A stretch of 64,000 nt of DNA from the NCBI RefSeq assembly GCF_964355755.1, contig NC_092676.1:20132288-20196287 (forward strand), given 5' to 3'. The stretch comes from Antedon mediterranea. Taxonomy: Eukaryota; Echinodermata; Crinoidea; Comatulida; Antedonidae. The translations under genes and the position numbers were made by a program. Of the stretch, positions 3,981 to 48,900 are shown piece after piece; within the stretch, counting starts at the first letter, position 1; every line of letters starts with the position of its first letter. The notes under the pieces are model-generated. The model saw only the letters and a list, made by a program, of their open reading frames with translations. It made no database searches and was not told the DNA's origin.

Positions 3981-4003
3981 AAAATTGCAGGGAAGGGGTC
4001 GTT

Positions 4004-4060
4004 AATTCTAAACCGCCCGGTGATATACTGAAATTTAATTAATTAATTTGAAACATATAT
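4004..4060 (-). mobile_element. Fragment of tRNA-derived SINE (3' body)
   Basis: The sequence from AACCGCCCGGTGATA through TTAATTAATTTGAAAC matches the body of the SINE copies at 26898-27082 and 27262-27426, in the same orientation. Only the part farthest from the tRNA head is present, and it is followed by a TA tract. Confidence 0.6.
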
Positions 4061-4067
4061 ATATATA

Positions 4068-4300
4068 TAACACTCAGCCTCAACCATAAAGCTGGTCATA
4101 GGAAATAGATAAATAGATAAATAATATAGATAAATTTCTGACTATATTGACTGAAGCTTTAAAGCAAATAAACTATAAAATACAATATATATACAGTATA
4201 ACGCTCAGCCTTAACCATAAAGCTGGTCATAGGTACTTATAAATTTCATTTCATATTTTGAAGTACAATAAGTGCATTTCCGGGACCTAACAGCTCCATT
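4068..4300 (+). repeat. Tandem pair of the CTCAGCCT interspersed repeat
   Basis: CTCAGCCTCAACCATAAAGC occurs at about 4072 and a near copy at about 4203. The first carries the same ACTATAAAATACAATATATA tail as the copy at 2259-2372. The head matches at all three places. The same tail also appears alone at about 4486-4508, before another TA tract. Confidence 0.55.
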
Positions 4301-4507
4301 TTAGCTCAGTCACAACCATGATAGGGACTTATATATTTTAATAATATGACGTATCAGAGTGAAAAATTTATAAATTCTAGTTATATCAATTAGTATCACT
4401 AATGCAACTTGTATTCCCATTACAGGAATATGGAAATGTACAGTATTTAGGATATATATGGTTTTATTTTCTTATTGAAAGGAACTAAACTATAAAATAC
4501 AATATCA

Positions 4508-4508
<1 letters not shown>

Positions 4509-4596
<88 letters not shown>

Positions 4597-4600
4597 ATAT
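4509..4600. repeat. (TA)n microsatellite
   Basis: About 90 bases of TA repeat with one interruption (TATATTATAT). It forms the left border of the large inverted repeat. A second, shorter TA tract (5063-5097) lies just beyond the right arm. Confidence 0.95.
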
Positions 4601-4712
4601 AAATCATACTGTAAATTATAGAAACAGTGCTCATATTCGGAACATGATCTCATAATCGCGTCGAGCATAGCTCATTGGCGAAAGTTCCGTATTTTTTAGT
4701 TGTATGAAAAAA

Positions 4713-4784
4713 TGTCTCTGGCTGGATTCGAACCTGCAACCTCTCGCTTACAGGGCGAGTATCATACCACTAGGCCACAGAGCC
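4713..4784 (-). tRNA. tRNA-Thr(UGU)-like gene or pseudogene, left arm
   Basis: This is an exact mirror copy of the right-arm unit at 4841-4912. It has box A TGGCCTAGTGG, box B GGTTCGAATCC and a T6 run immediately 3' on the minus strand (about 4707-4712). The anticodon stem is perfect, but the acceptor and T stems each have one mismatch and the D stem is poor. It is therefore probably a tRNA-derived sequence rather than a working tRNA. Confidence 0.5.
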
Positions 4785-4840
4785 ATGTATGGTATTATCA
4801 CAGATTATTATCACAGATAATCTGTGATAATACCATACAT

Positions 4841-4912
4841 GGCTCTGTGGCCTAGTGGTATGATACTCGCCCTGTAAGCGAGAGGTTGCAGGTTCGAATC
4901 CAGCCAGAGACA
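4841..4912 (+). tRNA. tRNA-Thr(UGU)-like gene or pseudogene, right arm
   Basis: The 72-nt unit has 6 of 7 acceptor pairs (GGCTCTG with CAGAGAC), a perfect anticodon stem CTCGC/GCGAG and loop CCTGTAA (anticodon TGT). The T loop is TTCGAAT on a stem with one A-A mismatch. Box A (TGGCCTAGTGG) and box B (GGTTCGAATCC) match Pol III consensus, and TTTTTT follows at 4913. Oddities are C instead of the invariant T at position 33 and a weak D stem, which argue for a pseudogene or SINE head. A covariance-model scan would settle this. Confidence 0.5.
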
Positions 4913-5059
4913 TTTTTTCATACAACTAAAAAATACGGAACTTTCGCCAATGAGCTATGCTCGACGCGATTATGAGATCATGTTCCGAATATGAGCACTG
5001 TTTCTATAATTTACAGTATGATTTATATATAATTTACACAGTGCTACGCAACATCATTG

Positions 5060-5062
<3 letters not shown>

Positions 5063-5097
<35 letters not shown>
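5063..5097. repeat. (TA)n microsatellite right of the inverted repeat
   Basis: A short TA tract follows ATTGATTTATA. With 4509-4600 it brackets the inverted repeat. Confidence 0.9.
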
Positions 5098-5101
<4 letters not shown>

Positions 5102-5270
5102 TGCGGCCAGCTACATGCTGGTCGTACGAAACAAATTTGTAGTGATTAAAACAATAAAGTAACCAAGTTTTCTGCTGTTATTTTATTTATTTATGCTCTA
5201 CCTTGGTATTGAGCACTCTATCCTAACGGTCTGATAATTTCAACCTGAATATATATATATATATATAAAT

Positions 5271-5790
5271 TTCAGAGTTATTGCAATAGACCACGATGTC
5301 AAATGGAGCGACAAAACTCGCAAAGACAAAGAAAACCACTGGGAAATACAACTTAAAACCACAAAACCTTTTGGACTTAACATTAGGAACATACTCCCAG
5401 ATCGGTAAAATTATTCCATTGAATACCAAAATTTAAGTTTCAATATTAACCACCATAAGCTGTTTTTTAGTTTCATTCCATATTGTTTATTTCTATACCA
5501 AGCTACCTTCTTTGTTTTCTATTCTTATTCACCCACCATTCACCACCCTCTCTCCTTTTGTTGTATTTCTTTTATTCCTGTCCACCCAGGCAGCACTTGC
5601 CAGTTCTTATACTATGACGTTATCCAAATTCCTTCACTTGCACTGATGAAGGGCTAGTGTTGCCCGAAAGCTCTGCTAACTTTTCTAGCTGTTTTACTTT
5701 ATCGTTTTGATTTAGTATTTCACTTTTTTTTTGTATCTCCATTGAGATCCAGCCACTGATACCCACAGTATTGTAATTTTTTCAGTAATT
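5271..5790 (+). mobile_element. Penelope-like element remnant (GIY-YIG C-terminus and 3' flank)
   Basis: On the plus strand the frame ending at TAA 5406-5408 contains DHDVKWSDKTRKDKENHWEI followed by LKTTKPFGLN. This matches the C-terminal end of the GIY-YIG nuclease domain of Penelope-like elements (W-x(3)-L-x-T-x2-P-x-GLN pattern). The reverse transcriptase core is absent. About 230 bases downstream is a CTGATGA...CGAAA block like the hammerhead motifs that such elements carry in their terminal repeats. The copy is 5' truncated and inactive. The assignment rests on short motifs, so confidence is moderate. Confidence 0.65.
5643..5680 (+). ncRNA. Hammerhead-ribozyme-like motif
   Basis: CTGATGA (5643-5649) is followed by a GGGC/GCCC hairpin with loop TAGTGTT, then GAAA (5666-5669). 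A short GC-TCT-GC stem and TA, as in a cleavage-site UA, come next. Imperfections are an extra A between CTGATGA and stem II and no clear stem I pairing. It may be a decayed ribozyme of the Penelope-like element. Activity is not implied. Confidence 0.45.
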
Positions 5791-8700
5791 TGCCTTTGGA
5801 TTTATATTTGGTGGAATCTTTATTTGACACTTAATATCTTTACATACCTAATTTCAAAGAATGCTATATCGTCAGTTCATATTTCAATAGACTGTATGGC
5901 CTCCACGATCAAGTGCAATTAATTAACTTTATTAATAAATCATAAATACCTTAGCATGTAAAAATAGCACATGAATTATATACTGTAATAACATATCTCA
6001 TGTAGCGTAGAAGGAAAAACTGCTAATACATGTTATTAATAGGATACATATAGCAATTTTGTTGTAAAAAATGTTGAAAATTAATGTTTTAATAGTCGCG
6101 TCAAACATTGCATTTGCCGTCATATGTCGACGCGAACGTACTAGTTGACGCAATACACGCATTTCTGACGAATTGTACATTCTCGAGGCTGATCGATTAT
6201 TTAACTTTTTTACACCAAAATCACCTCAGTATATAGCATGGAGTAAGAATTTACTCCATGGTAAAATGCAATTAACACCCTAAACATATCCTATTTTGTA
6301 TAACTTACACTTTATAATGGTAGGGCTTGGTCATAACTGATAGGGCTTAGTATTTTTAGGAGGAACATAAAGGTATTCCCACATGATTGTCACATGGTCT
6401 CCCAGGAGGACTCCCATCTCTAACCAGACGAGAACCGGTGTTTCAACGTGGTAAAGGGGGGGGGGTAAAAGGCCTCCTACTACAAGTAAATGCAGAATAA
6501 CAGTCTATCTAGCCTGGCCTAGTTTATTATTAACTATTGTTAATTAAATTCAATTATTTTGATCATATTGAGTGTCATTTTACCTGCCTTTTTTATTCCT
6601 GATTGATGATAAAATTTTTGATAGAGATCGTGCTGCAGACAGTCGCTCACGTGGTATGTATGCCAGCAGGCGGCGGGCTGTCCGCCAGGCGAACATTTTC
6701 TCGGCGATACCATTTTTTTTAGAGGGAAGATAGCTGTACTTTGTTTCTGTAAGTAAATTGCGTTATTAAGAGTATCTTTTCCTACTAGAGTTGCGTCGAT
6801 GTTTGGGTTTGCGGGCGAAGAAGTGTTAACTTTATGGATAGTCTGAATACAGACTACTATGACATAGGGTTCAGTACTTCATACAATGTTTAGTTCTTAG
6901 ATAAATACATACTCTCTGTAAAAAGACGACCATAACACAAATACACACTTTATTCAGATATTCTGTTACCAAATAACAACTTTTGTGTTGTGTACAGGTA
7001 TTATACTGTATATTGAACTACTGTTGTTGGCATAAGATGATCCTTAATATTTAAACCCTAGAGAAGGACTGGAGGTCAATACGGTCATTTTTACAGTAAA
7101 TCTGTATAAAATTATGATTTAGTTACCATGATTTTCTGGTTTATTTACATCATTGCATTGTTACTGCTACCTGTTTAATATACAAAATAGGGAAACAGAC
7201 TCCTTATTATACTGTATGTACACTATTGTGCTAAATAATACCTAAATAAATACATTTAAAACCAGATTTAACATCAAGTAATTATTTGTTGCGCGTTTAC
7301 AAAATTTACTGTTTGGAATAAATTTTTGTAGCAACGATTAGTTTCTTGTACTTGGTTTTCACTTGGGTACAACACAAGGAGGTAAGCCCTCTGTAATTTG
7401 ACCAATCATGATGCGATGGAAATTCTGAACTGTCGCTTGTGATGCGCCCTCATCGTATCGAATCCAAATAAGAACCAAGTTTTAAAGAAAAACAGAAACT
7501 TTAGAATTAATTTAAATGCATGATGACTAAATTACCTTCCCTGTGGTACAGAGGTAAACTGCTTCCAGCTCACCACTTGTGAAGGTAACTTATATTAAAC
7601 TACTAATATAGATATATAAAATACAATAACAATTAATAACTACATAAAACTATAAAAACTGAATAAGAAAAATGCTATTAAAATAGTGTACACTAAGGCA
7701 TGACCAGATTTCATGATTAATTGTACATACTAATAAATAAAAGGTATACTTTAAAAATTTACTATTAAAGCACAGCAATTATAGTTATCTATTTTAGCTA
7801 ACTTATATTATGGGTACATTTCTCCCAAACACAAGAATATTTGTAAGATCTAAATACAAATAAGATCCAAATACATAAATATTTGGAAAACCAGATTCTT
7901 TAGAAAAAAGAAAAGCATTAGCCAATCAAGGTTGTTTGGTATCGGGATGGTTGACTGTATTATATCATTAAAAGGCTAGCAATACTTAATGCTCTGTCTA
8001 CATTATTGAACTAGTTTGCATTTTTTGACAATTTTTTAGACTACTTCTTTCAAATTACCTAGCAAATTTCTGGAGTTTACACACAGTATGTTTAGTATGC
8101 ATCGTGGTCTGTGTAAAATCCAGAGTTTCAGCTAGGTCTTTGGTTGTAGACCAAAATTAGTAAACAGATAAATATTTTGGCACATATGGCGTTTCATACA
8201 TATAATACTTGAGCTCACATTTCAGATAAAAATTGAAACGCTGATTGGTGGACTAACATAAAAAATACAATAACTGCCAAACTTTTATCTTTTTACTACT
8301 TTGAGTCTAGAACCTAGACTACTAGGCAATGTGAAAGCGGTATTAATGATTACATTTTAACTATCTTGAAATCGTCCAGTACTGTGCACAACACATGAAA
8401 TTAACATGTGGAATGGACACTCAGGCTAGTCACATTCATACCATATTTTTATATATATCAATCATTGATTTATACTTTTTCCTCCCTCTCTTGTAAACTT
8501 ATATTGCATTTGCTAAAATTAAATAACCTAATATACAATTTCACCCTAGATAACTTCCACCACCACCACCCCAATCCCTAGTACTGCCACAACCACACAA
8601 TCATCAATTATAAATACCTATTTCCCAATAATATAAAATGTATTTAAAAAAATTATTGCTTAAAATTCAACATTGTCATATGAATGTTTTCTCTACAGTA

Positions 8701-26253: not shown

Positions 26254-26897
26254 ATTCGGAAACAAAGATTTCTAAGACCTAGTTAATAGGCCTCAGTTAA
26301 ATGAAAAATCTTAAAACCATTATTCACCAAACGGTGAATAATACATGTAAATAGGGCCTACTAAGTTTAAAAAAAAAAAAGACATTCGGAAACCAAGAGT
26401 TCTAATAGACCTAATTATAGTTCAGTTAGAATAGTGGGAAGTTAAGTTAATAGGCCTATACAGTCAAATGAAAAATCTTAAAAACCATTATTCACCAAAA
26501 GGTGAATAATACATGTAAATAGGGCCTACTAAGTTTAAAAAAAAAAAGACATTCGGAAACCAAGAGTTCTAATAGACCTAATTATAGTTCAGTTAGAATA
26601 GTGGGAAGTTAAGTTAATAGGCCTATACAGTCAAATGAAAAATCTTAAAAACCATTATTCACCAAAAGGTGAATAATACATGTAAATAGGGCCTACTAAG
26701 TTAAAAAAAATTACACATTCAGAAACCAAGAGCTCTATTAGCCTCCTAAACTTTAAATAAAATAAATTCTTAGTTTTATTGTATATTATTATATATATAT
26801 ATATATATAATATATTAAAATAAATAGACATTCGGAAACCAAGAGTTCTAATAGACCTAATTATAGTTTATTATAGTTATATAATATATTATATATA

Positions 26898-27082
26898 TAA
26901 ACACAACAGGCATAGAAATAAATTCCAAACCGCCCGGTGATACACTGAAAATTATTTAATTAATTTTTGAAACGATAAAGATGAGGAAATCTGGGAGAAT
27001 GAGAAGAAGTCGCCCCAACCGAGACCCGAACTCGGACCGTCTGCTTGATATGCAGTTGCCCTAACCATTAGACCACTGGGGC
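26898..27082 (-). mobile_element. tRNA-derived SINE, full-length copy
   Basis: The head (27082-27011) folds as a tRNA: acceptor GCCCCAG/TTGGGGC, D stem GTCT/GGGC, anticodon arm ACTGC-ATATCAA-GCAGA (anticodon ATC, one end mismatch) and T arm CCGAG-TTCGGGT-CTCGG. No T-run terminator follows. A body of about 110 nt (through TTTAATTAATTT, TATCACCGGGCGGTTTGG) ends in a TA tail. A second copy lies at 27262-27426 and a fragment at 4004-4060. Confidence 0.85.
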
Positions 27083-27261
27083 TTTCATTGTTCTTTAACT
27101 CGATCGGATAACGACCCTTTAACATTCTCGGCGTGGTACGGTTGGAACACAACTAGTCCTCAGTTGTACGCACGCGCACCAGAGATCAAATTGATACGCC
27201 CTCATCTATAATTCAGTATATTTATTCACTAAGCGGGATCTCGAGAGATACTTATATATAT

Positions 27262-27426
27262 ATATAAACACAACAGGCATAGAAATAAATTCCAAACCAC
27301 CCGGTGATACACTGAAAATTATTTAATTAATTTTTGAAACGATAAAGATGAGGAAATCTGGGAGAATGAGAAAAAGTCGCTCCAACCGAGACTCGAACTC
27401 GAACCGTCTACTTGATATGCAGTTGA
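27262..27426 (-). mobile_element. tRNA-derived SINE, 5'-truncated copy
   Basis: It is nearly identical to 26898-27082 from the TA tail through the T arm and part of the anticodon arm. It then stops at GATATGCAGTTG, where the 168-bp repeat resumes. It has the same orientation as the first copy. Confidence 0.85.
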
Positions 27427-42650: not shown

Positions 42651-42927
42651 GTCTGTTGAAAATAATAGTCTCCGATTCTTTATTCGTTTTGCTATGAGAA
42701 TGAGCTGGAATTTATAATCAAGTTTATTGAAATAATCTGAATTATATTGTGCAGCTGTTGGTAGGTGGAAGTTATTATAATATCATATGGATTTGTAGAA
42801 ATTTGACGTAGTAATTTAACGTGTTCTGTTTACACTCGCTGGGAAATTTTGAAAAAAAATACTCCCGACTACTCACTCAGCTGTTTCCGAATCCAGGCCC
42901 CCTACGTACTGTACGCGAATATTCAAA

Positions 42928-45900
42928 ATGGAGTATTATGATTCTCAAATGAGCGATGTTTTTGACGCTGAGGTAAGGACTGAAATGGATCAAATATTAA
43001 ATTCAGCTCAGTTAAATTCTACATCAGCAACCACAGAACTTCATTTTAATGGAACGGTGGATTCTGTTGTTGATCTATGCAACTCAAATGATGTTGGAAG
43101 CGACTCAACGGAACTGATCAACTTTTCTTGGTTGCAAAACGGAATAAACGGTTCTTCAAACAGTTTAGATTTCTCGCAGCTTTCTTCGGCCATCGATACC
43201 CATAATTTATTAGTAAATCCACAAACAGGTTCGCCTATATCTCTGGATTTTCTTGTAGCTCAACAACAACAGCAGCAACAACAACAACAACAATCCCAAC
43301 CACAACAACAGCAGCATCAAACTGTACGCAGTGCATTGGAAGCACAGAATTATGCTCAGCAACAAGCAAGTCAACAAATTCTCAACAGCCAAGTTCCTTA
43401 TCAACTACAGCAACATTTTATTCAAAATTCAAACATTCATGTTATCCAAAACGGCACGGTGCAAACCGTGAAGCATACAAAGATCGAACCGCAACCCTCG
43501 GATATAAATTCACAAGAAAAAGTGTATCCAAAACCAGCATATTCGTACAGTTGTTTGATAACTATGGCACTAAAAAATAGTAAAACCGGATGTTTACCCG
43601 TTAGTGAAATATATGCATTTATGTGGTGAGTATTTACCTTTAATTTTTTTTTTCTGTTTTACATTGTTTAAATGAAATATAACTTGTTGAAAATTGTATT
43701 TATCATTGTATCTAATTATTATTTTATTCGTTCATTTGACATGAAGTAGGCGTAAAGTAAAACTCTCACAATATTAATGATATATTTTCATTTTGAAAAA
43801 TGTTGCATCCAATTTGTTTTCAGCTCCCAAAATCTGACCCATTCTTTGGTTAAGTTTGGGGAAAGATACCTGGAATACCCTGATGATGACATTGAGTGAC
43901 ACATCCTAAAATCAATACATAAAATATGTTAGTGATGTGTGTCATCCAAACTGAATTACAATTTTGTCATGAAAAATATTAAAATTTCAAATTACCAAAT
44001 TTTAATATAGCAAAATTTTAAATTTTTAACCATAACACCCTCTATTTTCAACAATGAAAAAAAGGGAATTCCCCTAATTTATTCTTGTTTAACCGATCAG
44101 GATCTGGTTGGATAAGTTTTAGCACCCATAAATTCATGACTGGTTTATTATAACTATAAATACTGTGTAGAGAGGTTTAGATTTAAATGGTCATCTTTTA
44201 ATTAAATTGTGATCAGGAAGCAATATCAATTTATTAATAACCACACCCCTCACAATCAATTTACTATGAAATGAAATATGAATTATTAATAATTCAGTAC
44301 ATAATAGATAATAAAAAAAAATATTGATTAATATTTGATTTTTTCTTACAGTGAGAATTTTCCTTACTTTAAAACAGCACCTGATGGATGGAAGGTTTGT
44401 ACTTAAATTTCATTTTAATTTTTTTTTAATATGAATTAATTTAGCTTCAATCAATTATTAATTACATATTACTTGACAGTATATTGAGGGTCTATTTCTA
44501 TTGAAAAATACCATTTATAAAAAGATTGCATTGCAGCTCAAAATTGATCCACAGAAACCGTTTTTAATCCCGTATTTAATGATTAATTGGGGTTTCACTC
44601 GATACTTTTTATGTGGACCCATTTCTGTTGGCAAAAAAATATTGTTCTTTTAAAATACGGTACTGTATTTAAATGAAATGCGCCCTTGTTATTTTTTTTT
44701 TTTTGAAATAGTGTTTTTAACAAAAACTCTCACTTTAGTATTTTGCTTATGTTTTTCAACATTGTGATTTTGTTTCCTTGAAGTTGTGAAAATATTTTCT
44801 ATGAAATGGGATTGCGTTTAAAATATTACCAAACCTAACAATTAAAGATACTAAACAAATTGCAGTACACATTTAACAACAAAAGATCACTTAAATTTTG
44901 TCATACTAATAACATCTGCATGTTCCACCCATCTAAAAATGTCATCTTACACCCCCACACCCTACACATATTAGTACGTCGACGTGGACTGTATACCACC
45001 CTCCCTCCCCCAATCCCCTTTCAAAACAAATTTAAAACATATAGTACTTCAAATAGGATCATAAAATTAGTATAAAAAGGATTTTATTTAAATTACAGTA
45101 AGTTCAATCAATTTTTAACACGCTGTAACTACTTTGAAAAACATTTTGTACTGAAAATAATTTTTTTTTTAATTGGTTAAAAAAATATTGACAACAATGA
45201 CATGTTCTTCAGGACAAGTGTACAAATATAGTGATGTATGAGGTATTGAATTGTTGGCAATGTAAACAATAGTAATGCGTGTTAATAAAGTCATTAACCC
45301 AATTAGCCAGGAGCTGATGTAAAGGCTGTACTATTAAAGGTCAATTCTTGCATCTGTCTAGTTATTTATTTATTGACACTTTCTTGACAATAATATTTCT
45401 GCTTGTTCTGAGTAAATTTAAGTAATACATTAACTGTATACATTTTATAGAAACAAATTAAATAATAAATATTCTGTGTACCTGAGTATTTATAGTAAGA
45501 TTACTAGTTTGTTTGTTCATAACAAAGCATGTGCAAATGCACCCTTGTTTTCTTGAAATTATAGTTTAAATTTAATAATTAATATTTAATAATATTTAAT
45601 GTTTTTCTAAAATTTTTGGCTGACAATTTACAACCACCCAATCCCAGTAGCTTTGTTAGGGATGCAAAGGGACCTCTATAAAAAGTAGTACTTTAATAAT
45701 TCATAAAATTGTTTATTTTGATATTGTTTTCATAATACATTTATTACAGTATATGGATTTTATTACAAATATGGATTTATTCAAACTTTATCCATCTTAT
45801 AAACCCAACAGTATTCGCCATGTCTCTCTCTTCAATATATATATACTATAAATACACCCTTCTTAATGAATTATTTTGAGTAGTAACGGAAATAGACAAA

Positions 45901-48900
45901 TATACTACATTGAACACAATCTAGAATTACATATTGTATTTAGGGAAATGAAAATTATATGCTGGAACATAGCCATGACTACTGAAAACTGTTAACGATC
46001 AAAATAGAATAAATGAAACAAATAATATCTGAAAATGTAAGTAATTTATATTAATTCATATTTACTTGGAACATTTTCATTTAAATAATTTGATTAATCT
46101 GAATTTAAAAATAGAAAATACTTACAATAGTATCGTGGTTACAAATTATTAATTTTAATTAAAATTGACAGTACTATTAATTAATCTATTTGACATTGTT
46201 TATTTAAATTCAGATAAATTATGGCTCATTATAAACTAACAGTAACTCCTTAAAGTTTTCATTCACAATATTATTATAATTTCTTTGATTAATAACTTGG
46301 TTTTAAACATTTAATCTTAGTATCATATTTGTAGAGGAAAAATATTAAAATTATTAGCATAAACTTGATTACTATAATAATTTGGTAGTTGGACTAAAGT
46401 ACATTATGTGAAATTGAGAGGAAATCCTTGTGTCAACTTTATTCGCAATGACATTGTGTTGTCAACAATAGCCATATAAAATGGATCAATTAATGTGGAA
46501 ATGTCTTATCAATATTCCATGCATATGCCATATTTTTTTATTATTGTATGTAGTAGTAATTTCCTTATAGACATGTCATAAAAATAAATGTTATCTGATA
46601 TTAATATGCCTGGGCAGGTATATTGAGAAAATTGCTGATTAAAAAACAATTAAAACCATGATAGACTTTCAATTGGTAATAATGTGTCATTATTGACTGA
46701 TTGGTTCCACCCACAAATAAGTCTTTGTCGTAAAATTACTAATTTTAACCACTCCTTCCCTGCCCTAATTTTCTTTTATTCTTAACTCATCTACATCTCT
46801 TAACAATAGATGATTCAACCCTTTGTTCACTGGCCTATGGAATGTTCCACTGACTGAAGGTTGGAAAACAAAAAAAAACCTATAATTATATCAATCACCT
46901 TTGACCTAATCCAGGTGCCTGTTGCTGATTGGTCAAATCCCATGTGAGCTATGACTCATTTAATGATATCATGCAAATATAGCTTTCTGATTGGTTGAAA
47001 TGTATTCTTCCATAATAACACCTGCTCCTATTATTTTGTTATTGATCTATATTTGTGTTCATTGATCCGTATCATGTGTAGTAAAAAATAGTAAAACAAG
47101 TGCATTGTCGTCGTCGTCGTTGTACAGTAGTATAATTATGTAGATTAAGGTCTGCATGATTCATGAAAAAGTCATAGCAAATTCATTAATTATGATAATG
47201 TATAAAAAATAAGAATCTATAATATAATGGAAATGAAGGCATTTTTTGGTACAATACATGCAACTTATGTTTTGTATTAAAATGACTAAAAGTTATTATT
47301 TAAGTTATGATTTTAAATGTATATTTTTTGATTATTTACCTATTACGGTATATGTATAAATAATAAAATAAAAACAGTAATTTAAAATATATATAATAAG
47401 TCTGCTCTAAGCAGGGATAGGTCTAGGGGTGGGGTTAAAACAATTAAGGAATGGATAATTAAATAAAACAGTACATAACATACTACTATTGTTTAAATAT
47501 CCAGATGATTTCTTGGGGAAGTTCAGCTGGGTGGAAGGCCTTAATATAAACTTGAAACTTTAGGTGGATGATTGCTCCTACAGTACTTTGCTGAATATTT
47601 GTCACACTATCATTTTACCCTGAACTAAGCCTAGTGCATTATGGAAGTTGGTGTAATTTGCCCTAACCTACCGGAAACAGAGAGTATGGTGGGTTTGTTA
47701 ACCCAGAACATATCATTATTATAGAAAACATATCAGTTATGAAAAATGATAAAACCAGGTGTGAATAGGACGATCTATTGAGTTTAACCAACCAGAAAAC
47801 ATGCATCAATATTTAACAAGGGAATTGAATATAGCATCGATTATTCAACATTGTTCTTATTTATTGATTTTATGATAATTCTAATTATTACCTCACAAAC
47901 AATTAATTATTGAAGATGAATTATAAAAATAGAAAATTAATTGTGACTATAATTATGATGAATTATTATTTTAATAATAAATTAATTAATAAAATATAAT
48001 ATAAGCCTCTAGGATGTTCTGTGAGAAGTTGAAAATGATAATATCACTAATTTGTGGGAAAAATAGCTAAAGCCTGAGACATTAAATTAATTTGTTTCTA
48101 TTACTAAATGCATAAAAGTAGGGCAGTCCGATTAAATTTCATAACAAAGTGCGACTCTCTAAATAAAAGTTGTAGTAGGATGCTTATTGTGATAACAGTG
48201 TTTATAAAAACTTTTAGGCCCTCCGGCATTTGGCCTTGTACAGCAATACTGACCATCAGGAGTGTGCCTTCCATTCATATACAACAATTCATTCAATATT
48301 CATTGAGTTTTATTACCATTGACTATTGTGAAACTTTATGAATGGACTGTTATTAATTGAGGTTATTCCATTTAATAATGGGGAAAACAAACCTTCAATG
48401 AATATTTAATAGACTGGGTTGAAGAAATTGGGTAATCCCACCATGATATAGAGCTTCTTAAATTGCTCTATCTATCTGACCAATGACACAAACTTACTAA
48501 ACAAAATTACATCAATAATATTAATAAATTGTCGTTTGTTTTTCCTTCAGAATTCTGTAAGACATAATTTGTCCCTCAATAAATGTTTTGCCAAGATTGA
48601 GAAACCACAAAGCAGCTCAGGTTCCAGTAGAAAGGGGTGTCTATGGGCCTTGAATCCAGATAAGGTTGCCAAGATGGAGGAAGAGGTGTCAAAATGGACC
48701 AAGAAAGATCCAGCTGGAATCCGTCGTGCCATGGCCTGTCCAGGTTAGTTTACACTTTAACCTTAACAGTAACTTTGAAGTCCCACTGAATAATTCCCTC
48801 TTATTATGGACCAATTGCCTGTGTTTGAGTTAAGCACAAAATCTTAGCACTTGATTCTGAAAAAAGACCAACCCTATATCCATTCCATCCCAGTTCAAAA

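Follow-up and report, generated by a model that had tools for sequence, protein, structure and literature searches.

A perfect palindrome with two tRNA-Thr-like genes in the crinoid Antedon mediterranea is probably an insertion of a short non-autonomous element copied by Penelope-type machinery

In the present study, we analyzed a palindrome with two tRNA-Thr-like genes in a 64,000-nucleotide stretch (hereafter, the window) of the genome of Antedon mediterranea (NC_092676.1, positions 20,132,288 to 20,196,287; C7:20132288-20196287 in the 354-Mb genome of 18 contigs that was searched). The arms of the inverted repeat (4594-4808 and 4817-5031) are 215 nt each and 100% complementary, with no mismatch. 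They are separated by an 8-nt spacer, TATCACAG (4809-4816), which lies in a 13-bp direct duplication (4793-4818). The initial annotation had described a perfect repeat of 213 bp with a 10-nt spacer; its perfection was confirmed, and both lengths are corrected here. TA microsatellites flank the structure, as had been reported: the repeat listing gives (TA)n at 4509-4601 on the left and 5063-5098 on the right, and we propose these arrays as the target of insertion. The longest perfect inverted repeat in 20 composition-matched first-order Markov windows was 13-17 nt (arms within about 1 kb, simple repeats excluded), and that in the rest of the window, with the palindrome locus masked, was 28 nt. 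The two sides of the locus are not equal. A 39-bp extension that belongs to the element continues on the right to approximately 5070, and the left arm lacks it.

Each arm carries a tRNA-Thr(TGT)-like gene, at 4713-4784 on the minus strand and 4841-4912 on the plus strand. ARAGORN called tRNA-Thr(tgt) at 4712-4785(-) and 4840-4913(+), and a covariance-model scan, which the initial annotation had proposed, gave 44.3 bits for each with the Rfam tRNA model (gathering score, 29). The 5' ends of the genes are opposed and 56 bp apart, boxes A and B were recognized by eye, and a T6 run lies downstream of each gene; the two outward-facing units described previously are thus present. U is usual at tRNA position 33. 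Both copies look like poor decoding tRNAs because each has four non-standard stem pairs, C at position 33, and a weak cloverleaf (-8.9 kcal/mol vs. a minimum of -23.1 kcal/mol). The window tRNA shares 52 identical letters with human tRNA-Pro (ungapped) and 53 with tRNA-Thr (gapped), such that it may derive from either isotype. The suggestion that the locus might give a very long hairpin RNA is weak. RNA polymerase III (Pol III) units that point outward would yield two identical RNAs that are not complementary to each other. As each Pol III transcript should terminate in T6 at the end of the tRNA, a hairpin would form only by transcription from outside. A search of viral contigs with two arm patterns gave 0 matches.

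Sequence comparisons indicate that the palindrome is not private to this locus but belongs to a mobile element with copies scattered over the genome. A query of window positions 4780-5062 had at least 221 matches in the same genome, with 40 of the 642 first-look candidates scored. The monomer of this element (hereafter, the Thr element) is 367 bp, and the tRNA starts at monomer position 26. In 20 fetched loci and the window, monomers were arranged in direct tandem with 367-bp steps and head to head, and units that combine inverted and partial tandem repeats were present among the fetched loci. The left arm of the window (4594-4808, minus strand) spans monomer positions approximately 216 to 4 and has a short, tailless outward end. 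The right arm (4817-5070, plus strand) spans positions approximately 1 to 255; it matches the left arm up to 5031 and then continues through the 39-bp tail to a long outward end. Monomers of one array often have common element-specific variants, which would be expected if a single monomer, for example by copying around a circle, had been the source of the whole array; unequal exchange at a later time may be an alternative source. No open reading frame was found in the tRNA units examined. Matches to Rfam miRNA models in L009, L012, and L013 were below the gathering scores and lay on inverted or AT-rich sequences.

T6 directly follows the tRNA in 60 of the 68 copies that have letters there, and Pol III would thus be an unlikely source of the template RNA. 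A TTTT-free monomer that allows Pol III to read through was considered and rejected, as it was seen in one array (L009) only. We also rejected better conservation of the tRNA part than of the rest: diversity was 0.0118 vs. 0.0092, and 65% of 72-bp windows were as low or lower. The trailer of the Thr element did not fold better than its shuffles (z -1.31).

The outward ends are the side of the monomer downstream of the tRNA, at position 216 (short) or 255 (long), 39 bp apart; the distance from the start of the tRNA to the short 3' end is approximately 190 nt. Most of the readable ends in the fetched loci adjoin (TA)n arrays. Exact (TA)n junctions were found at 135 short-type and 99 long-type sites in the whole genome, and controls read backwards gave 0 in both cases. 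The opposite polarity was tested for the 216 end only, with a pattern in which (TA)8 precedes position 217, and had one site. These exact patterns presuppose (TA)n; the unbiased evidence of an AT-rich target is the end readings at the fetched loci. The outward side is fixed and the other side is variable, as in RNA copying with 5' truncation.

The two types of ends are paired in a regular manner. On C1-C7, where the count included 99 of the 135 short and 66 of the 99 long sites by coordinates only, 30 of the 33 adjacent head-to-head pairs had one long and one short end, and none of 20,000 label shuffles reached this number. Exact lists leave out ends with variant letters, including the short end of the window itself. 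Among the first 20 loci and the window, all nine head-to-head units with exact-letter ends combined a long and a short end, and variant end letters revealed three further mixed units (L013, L016, and L024). A second sample of 20 regions, which followed the order of the short-type junction list, contained eight mixed units, two equal units (L055 and L060), nine single-armed loci, and one locus that could not be assigned. L010, L026, L028, and L052 stand in the end tables without an assignment. The locus samples and the C1-C7 pair count overlap and are not independent. At L055 (482-1801), two neighboring units have equal ends, short/short and then long/long. Two of the three equal-ended pairs on C1-C7 adjoin there in the order short-, short+, long-, long+, which may be obtained by one inversion between two mixed units.

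The similarity between arms suggests that the arms of one element share a template. In a per-locus permutation test of 23 loci (arms of fewer than 60 positions and loci with fewer than five shared variable positions were excluded), opposite arms differed in 29 of 999 variable-position comparisons against a permuted mean of 4.6%, and 0 of 2,000 permutations were as low. No difference at variable positions was detected between opposite arms in 10 of these loci. This test replaced an earlier averaged measure (opposite arms, 0.0176; different elements, 0.0187) that was dominated by L015. The variant T36C, present in 3 of 83 copies overall, is carried by both arms of the window and causes the non-standard pair at tRNA position 11. 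Since the arms share this rare variant and their inner stops differ by 3 nt or less in monomer coordinates, they appear to have come from a single template, or one arm was copied from the other. The inner junctions of the element are spread over the monomer, and 25 of 30 are asymmetric by more than 5 nt; a discrete 5' end of the RNA was rejected on account of this scatter. Five of the 30, including that of the window, are symmetric within 5 nt, against 0.9 expected, and integration may therefore include a step of fold-back copying. The window palindrome is near-perfect because both of its arms stop at nearly the same point of the monomer, which is the minority case. The idea of a young structure, put forward in the initial annotation, was supported. 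That of an isolated inverted duplication was not, as an architecture with unequal ends recurs across the genome.

Penelope-like elements (PLEs) with reverse transcriptase (RT) and GIY-YIG domains were found near some Thr elements. The first set of 20 loci included 7 with hammerhead cores of the form CTGANGA...CGAAA, and the second set of 20 included 3; such cores were also present in the window. In three hammerhead families, X, Y, and Z, the 3' ends run into (TA)n, for X in several copies, and the hammerhead lies approximately 100-160 nt upstream of the 3' end. The window contains a 5'-truncated PLE of family X (5268-5806, plus strand), approximately 570 bp to the right of the palindrome, with the end of a GIY-YIG frame upstream of the hammerhead core (5643-5669) and the 3' end GGATTTATAT. 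Family X has RVT_1 and GIY-YIG domains above the Pfam cut-offs in L020 and GIY-YIG likewise in L042. The 3' end of X in L024 meets a (TA)n array that adjoins a Thr fragment. The exact X hammerhead core has 748 genomic sites (control, 0), and 5 of the 26 Thr clusters on C1 lie within 1 kb of one vs. 0.13 by circular shift. A shared preference for (TA)n arrays alone could explain this association. The long-frame PLE loci L036-L038 were rejected as the partner because they have no (TA)8 array, and X is therefore the candidate. In L037, a PLE coding region itself lies in inverted arms (4189-5356 and 5764-6932, 98.9% identical). A truncated copy of family Z was recognized by eye at 5099-5195 in the window; both L017 and L019 contain the core of this family, CTGAAGAGTGCGGCCAGC...GTACGAAA, in full.

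When the fetched loci and the window were searched by tblastn with four PLE query pieces, no RT and GIY-YIG frame was detected in the Thr units themselves; RT or endonuclease pieces were located outside but near them in L012, L020, L024, L047, L053, and the window. Therefore, we regard the Thr element as PLE-type and non-autonomous, not as a PLE proper. Hammerheads had no match in two Thr monomers or in the region of the Asp family described below, and all exact cores lay outside the Thr units, in a search that did not cover degenerate cores systematically. Rfam missed the X core that the motif search found, and its silence alone is weak.

We consider it probable that the palindrome arose when a short non-autonomous retroelement, a 367-bp unit with a tRNA-Thr-like gene that is copied by Penelope-type machinery, was inserted once at this locus. 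The role of the tRNA and the identity of the enzyme are what we infer. An RNA of one or several tandem monomers would be made, and a PLE protein, as in published PLE chemistry, would cut both strands of a (TA)n array. Each cut end would then prime reverse transcription at an internal TA-rich site, 216 or 255, as a rule one of them on each strand. The unequal ends of the pairs are observed, and the priming step is deduced from them. Both cDNAs would stop at variable 5'-ward points and be joined head to head; this structure is observed, and the manner of joining is presumed. The tRNA genes would thereby end up facing outward, and their Pol III transcript, which should stop at T6, would not be the RNA of the element. 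With the arms derived from one template, or one arm from the other, and with nearly equal stops, a perfect palindrome would result.

Several observations weigh against this explanation. Using the exact pattern, 99 of the 165 ends on C1-C7 had no head-to-head partner within 5 kb, three of the 33 head-to-head pairs had equal ends, and 9 of the 20 loci in the second sample were single-armed. The pairing is not exclusive to head-to-head units, since tail-to-tail neighbors were mixed in six of seven cases and same-strand neighbors in five of ten. The arms of L012, L015, L026, and L055 differ at 3-5 variable positions, and target-site duplications are unreadable within (TA)n. Regarding family X, its copy in the window has no (TA)n array after the 3' end, and X and the Thr monomer have no significant sequence in common. 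Neither a PLE-like frame nor a hammerhead core was found inside the examined tRNA units; therefore, the case for mobilization by PLE X is one of association only. Furthermore, Frangieh et al. (PMC11167929) observed no difference in start sites between strands in vitro, which leaves the near-universal unequal pairing unexplained.

The tRNA gene with boxes A and B, the fixed downstream end, and the variable 5' truncation may also be expected of an element resembling a short interspersed nuclear element (SINE) that is copied by a long interspersed nuclear element (LINE), with target-primed reverse transcription at (TA)n and an inverted arm produced by twin priming. We regard this as unlikely. After twin priming, the inverted part has an internal sequence at its outer end, but in the Thr element both outer ends are 3' ends, and T6 in 60 of the 68 copies would stop Pol III short of the 3' end of the element. 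Moreover, an arrangement with two ends separated by 39 bp, each used once in a pair, has been described in PLEs. Differences in arm length, inner ends that vary over the whole monomer (25 of 30 asymmetric), and outer ends that differ by 39 bp argue against a fold-back DNA transposon, a miniature inverted-repeat transposable element with TA target duplication, or satellite DNA circles captured at (TA)n breaks, even though inverted arms, tandem arrays, and TA-rich borders would suit them. The strict polarity of the ends, 234 to 1 for the tested junctions, is not expected of linearized circles, and we find these origins improbable.

Two explanations confined to this locus have even less to recommend them. 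Replication template switching at (TA)n is known to make perfect short-spacer palindromes in AT-rich surroundings such as these (PMC7954356). However, the longest confident event in that study was 128 nt, and the Thr unit is dispersed with a recurrent unequal-ended layout; a private inverted duplication of this type is thus very improbable. Fold-back artefacts occur in long reads (PMC12870357), and the initial annotation had listed an assembly artefact among its explanations. The left and right sides of the palindrome are distinguished by the 39-bp tail and by their flanks, and the layout with unequal ends is common to many loci in the genome, which reduces the chance of an artefact to almost nothing.

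A second tRNA family was found in the window. Its element (26889-27425, minus strand), identified with ARAGORN and by comparison with L024, carries tRNA-Asp(ATC) at 27011-27082 and is 88% like the L024 monomer; a further Asp fragment lies at 4002-4054. The anticodon ATC is not expected for Asp in eukaryotes. ARAGORN called tRNA-Asp(atc) in L009, L014, L016, L019, L021, L024, and L027; with Thr(agt) in L018, the only other isotype call, this amounts to 8 of the 20 loci. In L009 and L024, Asp units repeat in tandem every 364 bp, and the family looks similar in style to the Thr element. In L024 (780-3585), insertions bordered by (TA)n form a chain of an Asp element, a Thr pair, a Thr fragment, and PLE X; this Asp element has three tandem units and one inverted unit, and its sides end approximately 70 bp apart in the Asp monomer. 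An (AT)136 array of 273 bp without mismatch occupies 2373-2645 of the window, with an Asp-type 3' end fragment at its right border (by eye). Apart from these repeats, the window contains two exons of a forkhead gene (Pfam Forkhead; 42853-43629 and 48452-48748), which we take to be FOXN-like.

The features of the Thr element resemble those of several known systems. The reverse transcription of PLEs starts at two adjacent internal sites, matching a genomic tail of 30-40 bp called PLE-unique, and both target strands are cleaved and extended by an enzyme that prefers AT-rich sequence (Frangieh et al. 2024, PMC11167929). Arkhipova et al. (2013, PMC3846280) described pLTRs of approximately 200 bp in direct and inverted orientation, partial tandems, palindromes at the inverted junction, and a 31-bp tail optionally on one inverted pLTR. 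The 39-bp tail, usually one per pair, fits both accounts. The Thr element shares with Penelope/Poseidon-type PLEs (RT and GIY-YIG) the alternative 3' ends at a distance of 30-40 bp, copies that are head to head or in partial tandem, variable 5' truncation, and an AT-rich target; it differs in that no PLE-like frame was found in the tRNA units examined, and a tRNA lies upstream of the 3' end where the three neighboring families have a hammerhead core. Metazoan non-long terminal repeat (non-LTR) retrozymes (PMC7229834, PMC7761336) are likewise short, low-GC, non-coding tandem monomers, of 150-450 bp vs. 367 and 364 bp here, and PLEs have been proposed as their helpers; however, their defining hammerhead ribozyme was not found in the tRNA units. 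Helenus, Ajax (terminal-repeat retrotransposons in miniature, TRIMs, with LTRs derived from small RNA genes), and Cassandra (PMC10886601) are also non-coding elements with a Pol III gene-like sequence in the repeat, and their copies inflate tRNA gene predictions. These are LTR retrotransposons, whereas the Thr element has the inverted, tailed layout of the PLE type; that paper makes no use of the word Penelope. We saw 367-bp head-to-tail arrays and head-to-head pairs without a separate internal region of a Helenus-type TRIM; the primer binding site and polypurine tract were not searched. Antiparallel pairs of tRNA genes are documented in eukaryotes, and their authors suggested them as a possible source of small RNAs (PMC2888827); the pair described here differs in that it would have been made by the integration of a mobile element. 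In searches of an open-access library, no title or abstract opening dealt with a tRNA gene within a PLE-type unit, a provisional negative given the limited coverage.

More tentatively, we speculate that at least two families in this genome, Thr and Asp, are tandem elements mobilized by PLEs in which a tRNA gene has taken the place that the hammerhead occupies in neighboring PLE-type families. tRNA processing (RNase P and tRNase Z) or Pol III may then perform the task that the ribozyme has in retrozymes, which would make these families a PLE counterpart of Cassandra and Helenus. On integration, each of the two PLE start sites would as a rule be used a single time, on a different target strand from the other. 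The lack of better conservation of the tRNA than of its surroundings argues against a replacement of the ribozyme by the tRNA.

The transposition of PLEs is little understood, and the tail was linked to two RT start sites only in 2024 (PMC11167929). The hundreds of near-alike insertions in A. mediterranea show unequal pairing by count (30 of 33), which models of a two-strand reaction must explain, and this rule is testable in vitro. A perfect palindrome of this kind need not mean an assembly error. The present results also suggest a route by which tRNA-like genes increase in number in settings other than SINEs and LTR elements, inflating the counts of tRNA genes.
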